Both the position numbers and the translations under genes were made by a program. Below are positions 13,047-20,581 of a DNA stretch of 64,000 bases, piece by piece; position 1 is the stretch's first letter, and the number at the start of each line of letters is the position of its first letter. This DNA comes from Saccharomonospora cyanea NA-134 (GTDB taxonomy: Bacteria; Actinomycetota; Actinomycetes; Mycobacteriales; Pseudonocardiaceae), in the NCBI RefSeq assembly GCF_000244975.1, contig NZ_CM001440.1, forward strand, positions 4,076,325-4,140,324. Direction: 5' to 3'. The notes below the pieces were generated by a model. The model was not told the origin of the DNA. It searched no databases and saw only the letters and a list, made by a program, of their open reading frames with translations.

Positions 13047-14283
<1,237 letters not shown>

Positions 14284-14352: not shown

Positions 14353-14838
14353 TCAGAGCGCCTCGGAGGATTCGGAGGATTCGGAGGAGTCGTGGCCGCC
14401 GGTGCCGGCCGCCGGGTACGCGTCGACGATCTCCACTTCCTCCTCGGTGACCTCGCCGTCGACGATGCGGTACGACCGGAACTCGTACGTGTCCGGCTGC
14501 CGGGTCGACACCAGCACGTAGTGCGCGAAGGGTTCCTGCGCGAGCTTGATGTCCGTGCGCGAGGGATACGCCTCGGTCGCGGTGTGCGAGTGGTAGATCA
14601 CCACGGGCTTCTCGTCGCGGGCGTCCATCTCCCGGTACAGCCTGAGCAGGTCGCCCGAGTCGAACTCGTAGAAGGTCGGCGAGCGCGCCGCGTTCACCAT
14701 GGGAATGAACCGCTCGGGGCGGTCCGTGCCGTCGTCAGGACCCGCGATCACCCCACACGCCTCGTCCGGGTGGTCCCGGCGGGCATGCTCGACGATCGCG
14801 TCCACGAGGTCACGGCGAATCTGGAGCACGAGGCTCAT
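14353..14838 (-). CDS. mec: Mec: JAMM metallopeptidase releasing cysteine from CysO
   Basis: A Zn-dependent Mov34/MPN-type peptidase of 161 residues that cleaves cysteine from the CysO-cysteine adduct. The JAMM residues are visible: Glu26 in HPDEACGVI, His83 and His85 in IYHSHTATEAYPSRTD, Ser93 and Asp96. The ATG at 14838 starts the domain; more upstream frame is not needed. The last ten residues are a Ser/Ser/Glu repeat from an in-frame 9-bp DNA repeat and look disordered. It lies 69 bp upstream of cysO in the same transcript direction. Confidence 0.95.
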   Translation of the reverse strand: MSLVLQIRRDLVDAIVEHARRDHPDEACGVIAGPDDGTDRPERFIPMVNAARSPTFYEFDSGDLLRLYREMDARDEKPVVIYHSHTATEAYPSRTDIKLAQEPFAHYVLVSTRQPDTYEFRSYRIVDGEVTEEEVEIVDAYPAAGTGGHDSSESSESSEAL

Positions 14839-14888: not shown

Positions 14889-15428
14889 CTACTGTTCGGA
14901 GTCCTCGCCGAGGTTGGCGGAGGCCGCAAGCGCCGCCTCCGCCAGCGCGGTCTGACACGTGACCAGCCACGTCAGCTCCCTCCCGCCCTTGCGGAGTGTG
15001 ACCGTGGGCCAGTCCACGAGCGCGTTCCACCTCGGCCGCGACACGAACAGTGACTGCGCATGACCCAATGCGCAGAAGACGTCCGGCACGGCGACCTCGG
15101 GCACCGTCACCACGGCCGGATCCTCCCCGGAGTCGTGAGCGTGCGCGAAGAGCACGCTGGTGCGGCGCACCGCGTCGAACACCTGGCGCCGCATCGCCTC
15201 CCCGTGCCGGGCCCGGAAGTCCGCGCTCGCCTCACGGTCGAAGTAGGCGTCGGGGAACAGCCGCCGGTCGGGCAGGGAAGGCGGCCTGCGCCCGAACCGC
15301 CTGCGCTGCCCCGTGAACGCGCACTCCAGGTCGTCGAAAACCCCGAGCAGGCCCTCCGCCACCAGCCGGGACACCGCAAGGCACACGCCCTGTCCGGCGC
15401 GCCACGCCCGGACGAACTCCCCCGTCAC
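14889..15428 (-). CDS. Diverged DUF2017-like protein, second copy
   Basis: This 179-residue protein of unknown function seems to be a distant paralogue of the DUF2017 protein encoded 1.3 kb upstream. The best shared block is the LFPDAYFDREASADFRARH segment, matching the LLPDF(x)RDDPE-type helix, followed by a helix pair and VPEVAVPDVFCALGHAQSLFVS in the position of the family's [13 protein letters not shown] segment. It directly follows a ClpS-like gene, just as DUF2017 follows clpS. The GTG start has AGGAG at 4 nt. The C-terminal 40 residues (RKGGRELTWLVTCQTALAE) have no obvious counterpart in the first copy. The kinship is judged by eye. Confidence 0.6.
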   Translation of the reverse strand: MTGEFVRAWRAGQGVCLAVSRLVAEGLLGVFDDLECAFTGQRRRFGRRPPSLPDRRLFPDAYFDREASADFRARHGEAMRRQVFDAVRRTSVLFAHAHDSGEDPAVVTVPEVAVPDVFCALGHAQSLFVSRPRWNALVDWPTVTLRKGGRELTWLVTCQTALAEAALAASANLGEDSEQ

Positions 15429-15464
15429 TCGTCTCCTCGTCTGGTCACACTGTCTGGTCGTACG

Positions 15465-15731
15465 TCACGGAGCCATCGCGCCGGGCTCGGCACTGTCGCT
15501 CACGGTGGCCCGCACGCCGAGCACCTGGATCTCGGCCACCACGCGCTCGGCCTCCTCCCGGGTGCCGAAGGACAGCACGCGCGCGATCCCGTGCCGCTGC
15601 GCCTCGTCGGCCAACGCCACGCCGGTCTGCTTGTCCACGCCGCACACGTGCCACAACACGAAAGCCACACCTGGGAACCGGTTCACGTCGTCGTGGTGCA
15701 GATCGACGTGCCACCGCGCACGCTCAGCCAT
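15465..15731 (-). CDS. ClpS-like adaptor, second copy with altered degron pocket
   Basis: An 88-residue ClpS-fold protein. It aligns to the canonical ClpS of this locus almost without gaps, sharing the Trp at the start of the fold, Asp-x-Val-Asn in HHDDVNRF, the helix ending GVDKQTG and the AxRV strand. Relative to true ClpS the N-degron pocket changes: the His of LMLDVHHKG is replaced by Gln (ADEAQRHG), the preceding Val by Ala and the Met/Leu positions by Ala/Asp. The ATG overlaps the end of the P1 peptidase gene by 8 bp. It probably still docks on a Clp ATPase or another partner, but with different cargo; this is inference. Confidence 0.75.
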   Translation of the reverse strand: MAERARWHVDLHHDDVNRFPGVAFVLWHVCGVDKQTGVALADEAQRHGIARVLSFGTREEAERVVAEIQVLGVRATVSDSAEPGAMAP

Positions 15732-16758
15732 CGGCGAACACTTCCGGCCACACCTCGGCGTAGGCGGGCAGCCCCGGCACCCCCTTCGCGGACAGCAGAC
15801 CGTGCACCATCGCGCGGGCGAACACCCGCGCCGCCGCGGTGCACAGGCGGTCGAGCGCCGCCGCGCTACCCGCGTCCCCGATCGGCCCTTCCGCCCTCTG
15901 CAGGTCCTTCTCCCCCGTGGCCAACGCGAACACGGTGTCACCGTCGAACATCGTGTGCGCCGGGCGCACGGCCCAGGCGATGCCGTCCTGCGCGGCGACG
16001 GCCAACCGGCGGCACTGCGCCTTCGACAACGTCGCGTCGACGGCCACCACACCGATCGTCGTGTTCAGCCGGGTCCCGGACGGTGCGGTGAAGTTCCCCG
16101 CACGCTCCGGCCAGCGGGACACACCGAACTCGTTCTCGTCGGCGTACTCGGCGGCGTACGGCAACCCGGTGTCCAGGCGCACGGCCTCACCGGCGGCGTT
16201 CACCACGGCCAGCGCGCCGACCACGATGCCGTCGACATCCTCACTGGCCGTGCCGACACCGCCCTTCAGCGAGCCGACCTGCGCACCCGCGCCCGCTCCC
16301 ACCGAGCCCTGCGCGACGGGCCCTCCGGTCGCCGCCTCGCAGGCGGCGTGGCCGAACGTCGCATCGGGGCGGTTGCCCCACGTGCTGCGGGGCAGATCGA
16401 AGATCACCGCCGAGGGGACGATCGGCACGACGTGAGCCGGCTCCGGACCCACCGGGAAGCCGCGCTGCCGCTCGTCCAGCCACCTCATCACCCCGTCGGC
16501 CGCGGCGAGGCCGAACGCACTGCCGCCCGACAGGCACACGGCATCGACCGTGCGCACGAGGTTCTCGGGTGCGAGCAGGTCCGTCTCCCGCGTGCCCGGC
16601 GCGCCACCGCGCTGGTCCACCGCCCCGACGGTGCCCTCCGGCGGCAACACGACCGTGGTGCCGCACAGCCACCCGTCGCCGGTGCGGTCGTGGTGGCCGA
16701 CCCGGATCCCCCGCACGTCCGTGATCGCGTTGTGGCGTCCCGGGTTGGTCGTCGTCAC
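15724..16758 (-). CDS. P1 (DmpA-type) family peptidase
   Basis: A 344-residue self-processing N-terminal-nucleophile hydrolase, homologue of Rv1333. The chain likely cleaves itself between Asn232 and Thr233 in TRLNTTIGVVAVDA, exposing Thr233 as nucleophile; CLSGGSAFGLAAADGV and the GSVGAGAGAQVGSLKGG loop are family marks. DmpA relatives remove N-terminal residues from small peptides. It sits 10 bp after DUF2017 and its 3' end overlaps the ClpS-like start, so it is embedded between two ClpS-DUF2017 modules, which hints at a shared role in peptide disposal. Confidence 0.9.
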   Translation of the reverse strand: MTTTNPGRHNAITDVRGIRVGHHDRTGDGWLCGTTVVLPPEGTVGAVDQRGGAPGTRETDLLAPENLVRTVDAVCLSGGSAFGLAAADGVMRWLDERQRGFPVGPEPAHVVPIVPSAVIFDLPRSTWGNRPDATFGHAACEAATGGPVAQGSVGAGAGAQVGSLKGGVGTASEDVDGIVVGALAVVNAAGEAVRLDTGLPYAAEYADENEFGVSRWPERAGNFTAPSGTRLNTTIGVVAVDATLSKAQCRRLAVAAQDGIAWAVRPAHTMFDGDTVFALATGEKDLQRAEGPIGDAGSAAALDRLCTAAARVFARAMVHGLLSAKGVPGLPAYAEVWPEVFADG

Positions 16759-16768
16759 CCGTTCCGCC

Positions 16769-17326
16769 TCACTCGGTGAGCGCCTGCACGAGCGTGTCCT
16801 GCACCCACGTCAACCAGTGGTAGACGCCGAGGTGCGGGGCACGCGGGTCGTCCTCGGGCAACTGGTCGGGCATGTCCTCGGTGACGTCGAGCGCGGTGCC
16901 CAGCGCGAGCCGCACGTCGTTGAGCGCCGACAGCCACGCGTCGGCCTGCTCGAACGTCAGGCGCACCTCGCCACCGCCGGGCGGCAGCGTCCGCAACACC
17001 ACCTCGGCCACGCCGAGCTTCGCGTCCAGCAGCGCGGGCTCGTGCAGCGACCGCAACGCCGCCGCCGAGTCCAGCGACTCCTTCGACGGGCTGTCGGGGT
17101 CGAGCCTGTGGAAGTCGGGCAGCAACCGTCCCAGGACGGGGTCCTCCGGCCCCTCCGACGGGCCGGTGCGGATGCCGGTCAGCTCAGCGAGTTCGTCCCG
17201 CGGAGCCTCGTCCGCGCGCGTCTTCAGCATGTCCTCGATCTGGCCGACCAGCCCGCGCACCACGGCCGCTTCCTGCTGCTCGAAACCGCCGACCACCTTG
17301 CCGCCCCTGCGGCGCCATTCCCTCAC
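16769..17326 (-). CDS. DUF2017 family protein (clpS-linked)
   Basis: A 185-residue all-helical protein of unknown function that follows clpS across actinobacteria (Rv1332 position). Family features include [14 protein letters not shown] in the middle and [19 protein letters not shown] toward the C terminus, ending [15 protein letters not shown]. The GTG at 17326 overlaps the clpS stop (GTGA), so it is translationally coupled with ClpS and probably works with it or with the Clp protease. Longer in-frame starts would run into clpS. Confidence 0.9.
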
Positions 17327-17607
17327 GGCTGTTCCATCGTCGCCCACAGGCCCGCCGCGTGAAGTTTCGCGACGTCGCCCTCCACCTTCTCCTTCGTTCC
17401 CGACGACACGACGGCTCTGCCCTTGTGGTGTACGTCGAGCATGAGTTTCGTGGCGTGGTCCTTGCTGTACCCGAAGATCCGCTGGAACACGTAGGTCACG
17501 TAGGACATGAGGTTGACCGGGTCGTTCCACACGATCGTCTGCCACGGTCGGTCTTCGGCGCCGAGATCCGCACCGAGTGTTTCTTCGGCCTCGACGGGCG
17601 TGGTCAT
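17323..17607 (-). CDS. clpS: ATP-dependent Clp protease adaptor ClpS
   Basis: A 94-residue adaptor that delivers N-degron substrates to the ClpC/ClpA-type unfoldase. The [16 protein letters not shown] segment and [14 protein letters not shown] helix contain the residues that bind the substrate's amino group and first side chain, including the conserved His. The ATG at 17607 begins a 25-residue acidic extension typical of ClpS; an ATG four codons upstream is possible. It is the first gene of the minus-strand operon and is divergent from pncB, as in Rv1330c-Rv1331. Confidence 0.95.
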
Positions 17608-17740: not shown

Positions 17741-19036
17741 ATGTCCTCCCCGGCGAGCGGAAGCAGCACCGCGCTGTTCACCGACCACTACGAGCTGACA
17801 ATGCTGGCGAGCGCGTTGCGTGACGGGACCGGCGAACGAGACTGCGTGTTCGAGGTGTTCGCCCGCAGGCTTCCCGCCGGACGCCGCTACGGCGTCGTCG
17901 CCGGGACACAGCGGGTTCTCGACGCGATCGCCGATTTCCGGTTCACCGAAGCCGAACTCGCCCAGCTGGAGCGGACCGCCGTGGTCGACTCGGCCACGCT
18001 CGACTGGCTCGCGAACTACCGGTTCACCGGCGACATCGACGGCTACCCCGAGGGGGAGCTGTACTTCCCGGGCTCACCGGTCCTCACCGTGCGCGGCACG
18101 TTCGCCGAGAGCGTCCTGCTCGAGACCGTGGTGCTCTCGATCCTCAACCACGACAGCGCGGTCGCCTCCGCCGCCGCTCGGATGTCGGCCGCCGCCAACG
18201 GGCGCCCCATCATCGAGATGGGCGGTCGGCGCACGCACGAGCACGCCGCCGTGGCCGCCGCCCGTGCCGCCTACCTCGCCGGCTTCGCCACCACCTCGAA
18301 CCTCGAAGCGGGCCGCAGCTACGGCATTCCCACCCGAGGCACCGTCGCACACGCGTTCATGCTCCTGCACGACACCGAGGAGGCCGCGTTCCGCGCCCAG
18401 ATCGAGAAGATGGGCACCGACACCACCCTGCTGGTGGACACCTACGACATCACCAAGGGAATCGACACCGCCGTTCGCGTGGCGGGTCCCGAACTCGGTG
18501 CCATCCGCATCGACTCCGGCGACGTCGGCGTGCTCGCGCGGCAGGCCCGCGAACAGCTCGACGCGTTGGGAGCCAAGGACACCCGCATCGTCGTCTCCGG
18601 TGACCTCGACGAGCACGCCATCGCCGCCCTGCGCGCCGAACCCGTGGACGCCTACGGCGTGGGCACGTCCGTCGTCACCGGCTCCGGCGCACCCACCGCC
18701 GGGATGGTGTACAAACTGGTCGAGGTGGACGGTCGGCCCGTGGCGAAACGCAGTGAGCACAAGGCATCCCGGGGAGGCCGCAAGGCCGCGCTGCGCCGCC
18801 ACAAGCCCACGGGCACCGCGCTGGAGGAGGTCGTCTACCCGACCGGCAACCCGCCCGAGCCCGCCGAGCACGACAAGGAACTGCACATTCCCCTGCTGCG
18901 TGCTGGACAACCGGCGGAGGACCTGCCCACCCTTGAAGACGCCAGGCAGCGCCTGCGCCGCGCGCTGGTGAGCCTGCCGTGGGAAGGGCTGAAGTTGTCC
19001 AGCGGCGACCCCGCCATTCCCACGACCTTCCTTTAG
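17741..19036 (+). CDS. pncB: Nicotinate phosphoribosyltransferase
   Basis: Converts nicotinic acid and PRPP to nicotinate mononucleotide in NAD salvage. The 431-residue protein begins with [17 protein letters not shown], the conserved N terminus, and has the motif [20 protein letters not shown], the [12 protein letters not shown] segment with the regulatory His, and [14 protein letters not shown] for phosphate binding. Length is normal. pncA follows 34 bp later, giving a two-step route from nicotinamide. Confidence 0.96.
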
Positions 19037-19070
19037 CCGGCACGTGGTCGCGTCGATCCCGGAGGTGAAC

Positions 19071-19649
19071 ATGGCTACCGCACTGATCGTGGTGGACGTG
19101 CAGAACGACTTCTGCGAGGGAGGTTCGCTCGCGGTCGCCGGAGGAGCCGCGGTGGCCGACGCCATCTCGGCGTACGTGCGCGGTGACCGCTCCGCGTACG
19201 ACCACGTGGTGGCCACCCGCGACTACCACATCGATCCCGGTGAGCACTTCAGCGACGATCCCGACTTCGTGCGTTCGTGGCCCCGGCACTGCGTGGCTGA
19301 CACGGCGGGCGCGAGCTTCCACCCCCGCCTGGACGTCACACCGATCACAGCGGTGTTCTCGAAGGGCCAGTACAGCGACGGCTACTCGGGTTTCGAGGGC
19401 GAGACGGACGCGGGCGAGCTCCTCGTCGACTGGCTACGGGTGCGCGAGGTGACGGCGGTCGACGTCGTCGGGATCGCCACCGACCACTGCGTGCGCGCCA
19501 CCGCGCTCGACGCCGCCCGGCACGGCTTCGACGTCCGCGTTCTCGCCGGCCTCACCGCGGGCGTCTCGGCGTCCACGGTGGACGCGGCGCTGGCGGAACT
19601 GCGTGAGGCCGAGGTGGCCGTCGTCGGAGAACCGAAGGTCGCTTCGTGA
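19071..19649 (+). CDS. pncA: Nicotinamidase (PncA; isochorismatase fold)
   Basis: Hydrolyses nicotinamide to nicotinic acid, the substrate of the upstream PncB; also the activator of pyrazinamide in mycobacteria. The 192-residue protein has the Asp9-Lys98-Cys140 triad (VVDVQNDF, VFSKGQYSD, ATDHCVRATA) and the metal ligands Asp51, His53 and His59 in RDYHIDPGEHF. GGAGGTGAAC precedes the ATG at 19071, which is preferred to an earlier GTG. The stop overlaps the start of the kinase gene. Confidence 0.96.
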   Translation: MATALIVVDVQNDFCEGGSLAVAGGAAVADAISAYVRGDRSAYDHVVATRDYHIDPGEHFSDDPDFVRSWPRHCVADTAGASFHPRLDVTPITAVFSKGQYSDGYSGFEGETDAGELLVDWLRVREVTAVDVVGIATDHCVRATALDAARHGFDVRVLAGLTAGVSASTVDAALAELREAEVAVVGEPKVAS

Positions 19650-20581
19650 CGGGTACGGGGCTGTTGACCTTCGGCGAGGCGCTCACGGTTTTCAGCACGC
19701 AGTCGGGCAAACTACGGCACGCCACCTCGGTGGACGTCGGTATCGCCGGGTCCGAGGCCATGGTCGCCATCGGTGTGGCCAGGCTGGGTGTCCCCGCCGC
19801 GTGGGCGGGGAGGCTCGGCGCCGACGAACCCGGCGCACTCGTCCTGGCACGGCTGCGGGAGGAGGGGGTGGACACCTCCGCCGTGCGCACCGACCGCCAG
19901 GCACCCACCGGGTTGATGATCAAGGACTTCCGCAACGCGGACGCCACTCGCTCCGCGTACTACCGCAACGGCAGCGCCGGAACCCGGCTGTGCCCGGAGG
20001 ACATCCCGGAAGACCACATCCGCGCGGCGGGCGTGCTGCACCTCAGTGGCCTCACCCCCGGGCTCTCGGACTCGGCCGCCAAGGCGGTGTTCGCCGCGGC
20101 CGAGGCCGCCCGCGGCGAAGGCGTTCCCGTGTCACTCGACATCGACTACGGCCACGCTCTCTGGTACCCCGAGGACGCGGCCGACATCCTGTACGACCTC
20201 GTGTCGTTGTGCGACATCGTGTTCGCCGGGGACGACGCCGCCCGGCTGCTCGGTCTGGACGGCGATCCGCAGGAGCTGGCGGCCGGACTGGCGGAACTCG
20301 GACCGGAACAGGTGATCATCGAGCTCGGGCCGCGCGGGGCCGTGGCGGAGCTGCACGGGTCCCGGTACGACGTGCCGAGCTACCCGGTGCGGTCGGTGGA
20401 CACCGAGGGCGCCGACGACGCGTTCGTCGCGGGCTACCTGGCGGAGTTCCTGACAGGTGCGTCGCCGGATCGGCGACTGCGCACGGCCGCCGCGTGCCGG
20501 GCCTTCTCCCTCACCGTCCCCGGCGAGACGACGGGCCTTCCGGACCGGGAGGAACTCAAACTGCTCACCCGCCCCCGCTGA
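19646..20581 (+). CDS. PfkB family carbohydrate kinase (KDG kinase-like) with altered anion-hole motif
   Basis: A ribokinase-fold sugar kinase of 311 residues, closest in pattern to 2-keto-3-deoxygluconate or fructose kinases. The N-terminal signature LLTFGEAL and the ligand loop AGSEAMVAIGVARLG are present, as is the ATP-side IIELGPRGAVAEL. The catalytic motif normally reading GAGD is GADD here (residues 255-258), so the base Asp258 is kept but the anion-hole Gly is Asp. The GTG overlaps the pncA stop (GTGA), so it is coupled to NAD salvage for no known reason. Substrate unknown. Confidence 0.85.
   Translation: MTGTGLLTFGEALTVFSTQSGKLRHATSVDVGIAGSEAMVAIGVARLGVPAAWAGRLGADEPGALVLARLREEGVDTSAVRTDRQAPTGLMIKDFRNADATRSAYYRNGSAGTRLCPEDIPEDHIRAAGVLHLSGLTPGLSDSAAKAVFAAAEAARGEGVPVSLDIDYGHALWYPEDAADILYDLVSLCDIVFAGDDAARLLGLDGDPQELAAGLAELGPEQVIIELGPRGAVAELHGSRYDVPSYPVRSVDTEGADDAFVAGYLAEFLTGASPDRRLRTAAACRAFSLTVPGETTGLPDREELKLLTRPR

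Follow-up and report, generated by a model that had tools for sequence, protein, structure and literature searches.

The closest described relative of the locus analysed here is the canonical actinobacterial gene cluster clpS-DUF2017-S58-mec-cysO-cysM, in which the DUF2017 gene belongs to the AosR family, annotated in NCBIfam as transcription regulators; beyond clpS itself, the operon of Mycobacterium tuberculosis follows this gene order. In M. tuberculosis, ClpS is encoded by Rv1331 and has been reported in a complex with ClpC1 (PMC6274998). The window considered in this work, a stretch of 64,000 nucleotides from Saccharomonospora cyanea NA-134 (NZ_CM001440.1, positions 4,076,325 to 4,140,324), matches the canonical cluster in gene order, strand, fold families and operon, and holds a second, fast-evolving copy of its two-gene unit clpS-DUF2017.

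A second, diverged clpS-DUF2017 pair

All five genes concerned lie on the minus strand, at the positions and in the order given by the initial annotation; start codons throughout are chosen and not measured. The canonical pair consists of clpS (ClpS1; 17323-17607; 94 amino acids), recognized by PF02617 (86.3 bits) and by the NCBIfam ClpS model NF000668 (151 bits, cut-off 86), and of DUF2017-1 (16769-17326), a member of the AosR-type regulator family that scores 185.8 bits with PF09438 and 236 bits with NF051854, the model of the oxidative-stress regulator AosR, under the cut-off of 260 of the latter. A P1/DmpA-type peptidase gene of family S58 (15724-16758; PF03576, 224 bits) lies between the two pairs and outside the duplicated unit. 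It is followed by the second ClpS-like gene (ClpS2; 15465-15731; 88 amino acids, with a short N terminus), which passes the PF02617 gathering cut-off (29.2 bits, cut-off 23), and by the second DUF2017-like gene (DUF2017-2; 14889-15428; 179 amino acids), which passes that of PF09438 (31 bits, cut-off 25, profile positions 10-127 of 179) and, unlike its canonical AosR-type counterpart, has no match to the AosR model at E 1. The GTG start of DUF2017-1 overlaps the clpS stop codon (shared GTGA), the ATG of ClpS2 lies 8 bases inside the 3' end of the peptidase gene, and DUF2017-2 starts 36 bases past ClpS2 with a purine-rich ribosome-binding site ahead of its GTG start.

By single-sequence BLASTP, ClpS1 and ClpS2 gave no alignment and the two DUF2017 proteins an insignificant one (E 2.3). 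Comparison of family profiles with hhalign matched the ClpS paralogs to ClpS1 at 98.9% (E 2.2e-17; 30 and 15 sequences, alignments A1 and A2) and the DUF2017 paralogs to canonical DUF2017 at 96.6% (E 6.5e-10; 33 and 16 sequences, A3 and A4). The ClpS paralog profile also matches ClpS chains solved in the PDB (best 9ayn, E 6.6e-16); among PDB entries, the canonical DUF2017 profile found no relative and the paralog profile three insignificant matches. The duplicated and diverged module first seen in the annotation is thus supported by Pfam as well as by family profiles; what had been overlooked are the AosR family, a third pair in the same genome and the recurrence of the pair without the peptidase.

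The second pair is conserved in relatives. ClpS2 is kept in all six other sampled Saccharomonospora genomes (74-86% identical), and across the seven genomes (21 comparisons for each gene) the median ratio of nonsynonymous to synonymous substitution rates (dN/dS) is 0.20 for both ClpS2 and DUF2017-2, as for the S58 gene, with 0.13 for DUF2017-1 and 0.04 for ClpS1; both new genes are therefore under purifying selection. DUF2017-1 has no cysteine and DUF2017-2 has four, two of them common to all seven Saccharomonospora DUF2017-2 proteins, a pattern from which a shift of a thiol-sensing role from the canonical to the second regulator is possible.

Recurrence of the pair in Pseudonocardiaceae and the phylum

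The duplicated unit is the ClpS-DUF2017 pair and not a peptidase-centred module, as follows from the dispersal of 19 of 53 extra pairs, from fusions of the two genes and from the adjacency of the canonical pair. Our genome samples are even draws and not whole groups. Of the 150 family genomes, 47, spread over 19 of 46 genera, show two or more ClpS matches, which makes 53 extra copies in total. The survey of co-occurrence proposed with the initial annotation gave a uniform answer, since each extra ClpS gene is directly followed, on its own strand, by a DUF2017-like gene (53/53 loci examined). A few of these pairings are weak: the DUF2017 part of L143 scores 8 bits, at noise level, and the DUF2017 gene is broken in L080, L081 and L152. 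The converse also holds, as the 48 paralogous DUF2017 matches of at least 104 bits all adjoin an extra ClpS when positions are compared.

Thirty-four of the 53 extra pairs lie inside the P1-peptidase cluster, after the S58 gene, and mec follows the pair in 33 of these 34 loci (at a distance of about 4 kb in L085 and L087), the contig of L084 ending first. Two loci, L075 (6633-8243) and L151 (6181-7593), carry two extra pairs each in tandem, or three with the canonical one. Around the 19 remaining pairs, which are dispersed, the fetched flanks (in most cases some 5 kb; 1.5 kb for L143) contain no P1 peptidase. Among the dispersed copies is the third pair of S. cyanea itself (L080:5567-6605, at about 2,440.6-2,441.6 kb of the contig), the DUF2017 part of which is split over two frames. 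This pair adjoins a short-chain dehydrogenase-like gene, as read from the translation. When 18 of the 19 dispersed loci were compared (BLASTP E 1e-12 or better, open reading frames of at least 110 amino acids, L143 omitted), the pair itself recurred in 7 of 10 genera, and no other gene content was common to three or more.

The P1 peptidase is retained in all six fetched clusters without an extra pair (L154-L159), and clusters L096-L099 of genus g278 have the order clpS-DUF2017-mec-cysO-cysM without it. The pairs dispersed without a P1 peptidase in their fetched flanks, together with the peptidase-free clusters, lead us to reject the peptidase as part of the unit. One of the clusters without an extra pair, from genus g262 whose members often have one, holds 3.1 kb of other content between S58 and mec (L154:6671-9777). 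A scan of named genomes yielded five loci, with the cluster only in L127 and L128.

In one genus, ClpS and DUF2017 are fused within a single stop-free frame in three of 24 genomes (G535, G899 and G913; L102:5988-6740, L168:1495-2616 and L169:1486-2265, both domains in one open frame), and 13 of these 24 genomes have a match. The fusions of G899 and G913 are 70% and 67% identical to that of G535 (L102). Trees were built from 67 ClpS and 63 DUF2017 rows. In each, all canonical copies fall into a single clade (100/100), separate from the paralogs, whose partner groups are mostly the same in both; the ClpS tree, which includes 14 of the 42 canonical copies, rests on few columns and leaves 18 forks open, and in both trees long branches come together. 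The paralog distance matrices of the two partners correlate (49 pairs, r 0.84, 0/2000 permutations in a Mantel test that ignores kinship; L080, L081, L143 and L152 are omitted here and from the DUF2017 tree). The cluster copy L104 groups in both trees with L090, L091 and L093, dispersed copies from its own genus, which suggests that the two genes move jointly.

The canonical genes, too, are neighbours. Of the loci compared, all from the class of S. cyanea, 29 had been fetched by DUF2017 (its best-scoring matches) and 19 by ClpS; canonical ClpS and DUF2017 adjoin each other in every one, with a median gap between the domains of 43 and 47 bases, respectively. Across the phylum, 92 genomes have both genes among the matches listed, 90 of them outside the class, and the pair is adjacent in 89 of these 90. 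The lone miss of the 92 genomes compared is G188 (contig C10), where DUF2017 and ClpS lie about 40 kb apart on opposite strands. In 396 phylum genomes, both genes are found in 157, DUF2017 alone in three, ClpS alone in 67 and neither in 169 (Fisher p 2.6e-51, kinship ignored); with ClpS present in 157 of the 160 DUF2017 genomes, DUF2017 is nearly confined to ClpS-bearing genomes, and not the reverse. The two genes are also lost together. A ClpS match is present in 376 of 394 class genomes, and 16 of the 18 without it, four of which are less than 90% complete, have no DUF2017 match either; within group f91, the 12 genomes of genus g313 have neither a ClpS match nor a DUF2017 match over the cut-off.

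Within the order but outside the family, each of 38 genomes has a single ClpS match, which fits the remark of the initial annotation that mycobacteria have only one set. A second match occurs in two of 391 class genomes outside the family of S. cyanea (G634 and G662). Neither of these held up: one is noise (L144, 21 then 17 bits) and the other reflects two canonical pairs (L120 and L138) in a genome that is 68% complete.

The ClpS2 pocket and the possible role of the pair

In ClpS, residues N34, D35 and H66 (E. coli numbering) bind the free amino group, and ClpS proteins acting as N-recognins have about 25 residues ahead of the core, an N-terminal extension that E. coli ClpS uses for delivery. 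All 42 canonical copies have N34, D35, P36, M40 and H66. The ClpS2 of the window has H34, D35, D36, F40 and Q66 at these positions, and among the 53 paralogs D35 is kept in 52 and H66 in only 22. The amino-group-binding triad [N/D]34-D35-H66 is not intact in 33 paralogs, the window copy included (two of the 33 are incomplete rows), and a cysteine replaces a canonical phenylalanine in 30. At two sites considered for a possible binding to the N-domain of ClpC or ClpA, E82 is kept in 52 of 53 and position 84 is hydrophobic in 46. By the chosen starts, 35 of 38 paralogs, ClpS2 of the window among them, have at most 10 residues before the core, the exceptions with 26-29 residues being L080, L082 and L083. 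An in-frame stop at most 17 residues upstream of the core excludes an N-terminal extension in 14 of 53 paralogs; in the window, the ClpS2 frame stays open for 116 residues further upstream, and its short N terminus thus reflects the start chosen.

The genes stand together in every extra copy examined, which makes a matched two-part unit their most likely nature, and we hold with moderate confidence that ClpS2 and DUF2017-2 form a matched and dedicated pair of a ClpS-fold protein and a regulator. Such a partnership best accounts for pairing, co-loss and fusion. The ClpS-fold protein would then serve its own AosR-related DUF2017 protein as control subunit or dedicated partner, binding to it directly, and it may tie this protein to the ClpC unfoldase, on which it would dock, rather than scan the cell for N-degrons. 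A more general proposal can be put forward tentatively: the actinobacterial ClpS fold may be chiefly a sensor or control subunit of the AosR-type DUF2017 regulator, and Pseudonocardiaceae may have expanded the pair into a set of two-part regulators, of which some are fused and many no longer recognize N-degrons.

The operon continues past DUF2017-2 on the minus strand with a mec-like gene for a JAMM metalloprotease (14353-14838; PF14464, 108 bits), a cysO-like gene for a ThiS-type sulfur carrier (14005-14283; PF02597, 67.6 bits) and a cysteine synthase gene known from its open reading frame and translation (13047-13997), presumably cysM; iterated profiles seeded with the latter match 41 other fetched clusters (24 + 17). 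As the extra pair stands in one apparent operon with mec-cysO-cysM, it may, in Saccharomonospora, add a second layer of control to this sulfur-carrier pathway of cysteine synthesis, which would be its regulatory output. Divergently from clpS (17741-20581) lie genes that resemble, by their translations, a nicotinate phosphoribosyltransferase, a nicotinamidase and a PfkB-type sugar kinase.

Several observations speak against a dedicated partnership. Adjacency and tree agreement are also expected from shared inheritance in one operon. The three fusions may descend from a single event and their constraint is moderate, with dN/dS of 0.33-0.74 in the two domains (dS 0.24-0.67) and of 0.56-1.59 in the linker. 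No extra pair is found in 103 of the 150 family genomes, and three dispersed DUF2017 copies are broken, one of them in the own genome of S. cyanea (L080). The N-degron triad is intact in 20 of the 53 extra ClpS proteins. DUF2017 occurs without a ClpS match in three of the 396 phylum genomes and, in the class, in G846 (106 bits) and below the cut-off in G773 (20 bits). The 67 phylum genomes with ClpS alone imply that ClpS does not need DUF2017; they include genomes of group f19 with one to five ClpS matches, mostly two or three (e.g. G327 and G053). The 160 genomes positive for DUF2017 contain no member of f19, which points to an independent ClpS expansion.

An unlikely alternative is that each ClpS delivers the neighbouring DUF2017 regulator as a substrate to ClpC-ClpP for degradation, which would agree with pairing and co-loss. 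However, the extension needed for delivery in E. coli is missing in most copies by the chosen starts, and the persistence of the fused gene in three species is awkward if delivery means destruction; a fusion is more readily understood as a standing complex, be it of sensor and output or a two-part adaptor, than as an adaptor joined to the protein that it has degraded. There is a precedent for substrates of this kind, as ClpS was reported to act on the regulator PhoP, which MgtC protects by outcompeting ClpS (PMC7966870). It is also rather unlikely that DUF2017 serves as co-adaptor or anti-adaptor that tunes ClpS, in a two-part ClpC adaptor like that proposed for chloroplast ClpF-ClpS1 (PMC7966870). 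The near confinement of DUF2017 to ClpS genomes fits this idea and the fusion would function as such an adaptor, but the annotation of the family as transcription regulators would then be superfluous. That the extra pair is an operon by-product, an old duplication kept by dosage or drift in the absence of any special partnership, appears improbable: very fast divergence and the absent or broken copies listed above (L080, L081 and L152) would be explained, but not the dN/dS of 0.20 for both genes in Saccharomonospora, nor the 19 dispersed copies that hold both genes together. Finally, the initial proposal of a second N-degron branch feeding peptides to a self-processing peptidase in its middle, suggested by the gene order of the window and shared by the 34 pairs in peptidase clusters, is very improbable given the 19 pairs without a P1 peptidase in their flanks, the peptidase that persists without the pair in 6/6 clusters and is absent from L096-L099, and the triad that is not intact in 33 of 53 paralogs (H34-D35-Q66 in the window). 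A second N-degron branch is doubtful, although the 20 copies with the triad could bind N-degrons.

Comparison with related Clp systems

As supposed in the initial annotation, the module seems to be undescribed: full-text literature searches, for which most subscription journals were outside reach, returned no account of a ClpS-DUF2017 unit that is duplicated or fused, and no paper on DUF2017. Should the pairing be functional, AosR-type regulators would have a protein that binds them and actinobacterial ClpS a defined task, a complex of ClpS with DUF2017 would be predicted for most phylum genomes with the two genes, and the fold of a proteolysis adaptor would be joined with a cysteine or redox regulator in one module. 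The natural fusions and the 53 diverged pairs offer ready material for work on binding and specificity.

Compared with canonical ClpS, ClpS2 has a changed pocket and is 27-39% identical to the paralogs of other genera, and the paralogs are mostly devoid of an N-terminal extension. ClpS1/ClpS2 paralogs are known from cyanobacteria (PMC7966870) and Leptospira (PMC12493166). In these cases and in that of the 'ClpS 2' of PDB 4yjm there is also more than one ClpS per genome, with the difference that here the duplicated unit is a pair with DUF2017. We know of no report of the cyanobacterial, Leptospira or 4yjm paralogs being duplicated together with a partner gene. Clp components have also expanded in the case of ClpI, an additional unfoldase that some Actinomycetota possess, Pseudonocardiales among them (PMC10149685); however, the extra ClpS is not tied to extra unfoldases. 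As a candidate partner, ClpI showed no positive association with the extra ClpS: the mean number of ClpB_D2-small matches, counted without telling ClpI apart, is 3.9 for the 47 carriers against 4.3 for the 103 other genomes (Mann-Whitney p 0.048, in the direction opposite to an expansion), and 14 of the 47 carriers have only three. Finally, the proposed binary adaptor ClpF-ClpS1 of chloroplasts likewise joins a ClpS with a fixed partner, the latter differing in that ClpF has UVR and YccV domains and DUF2017 belongs to another family.

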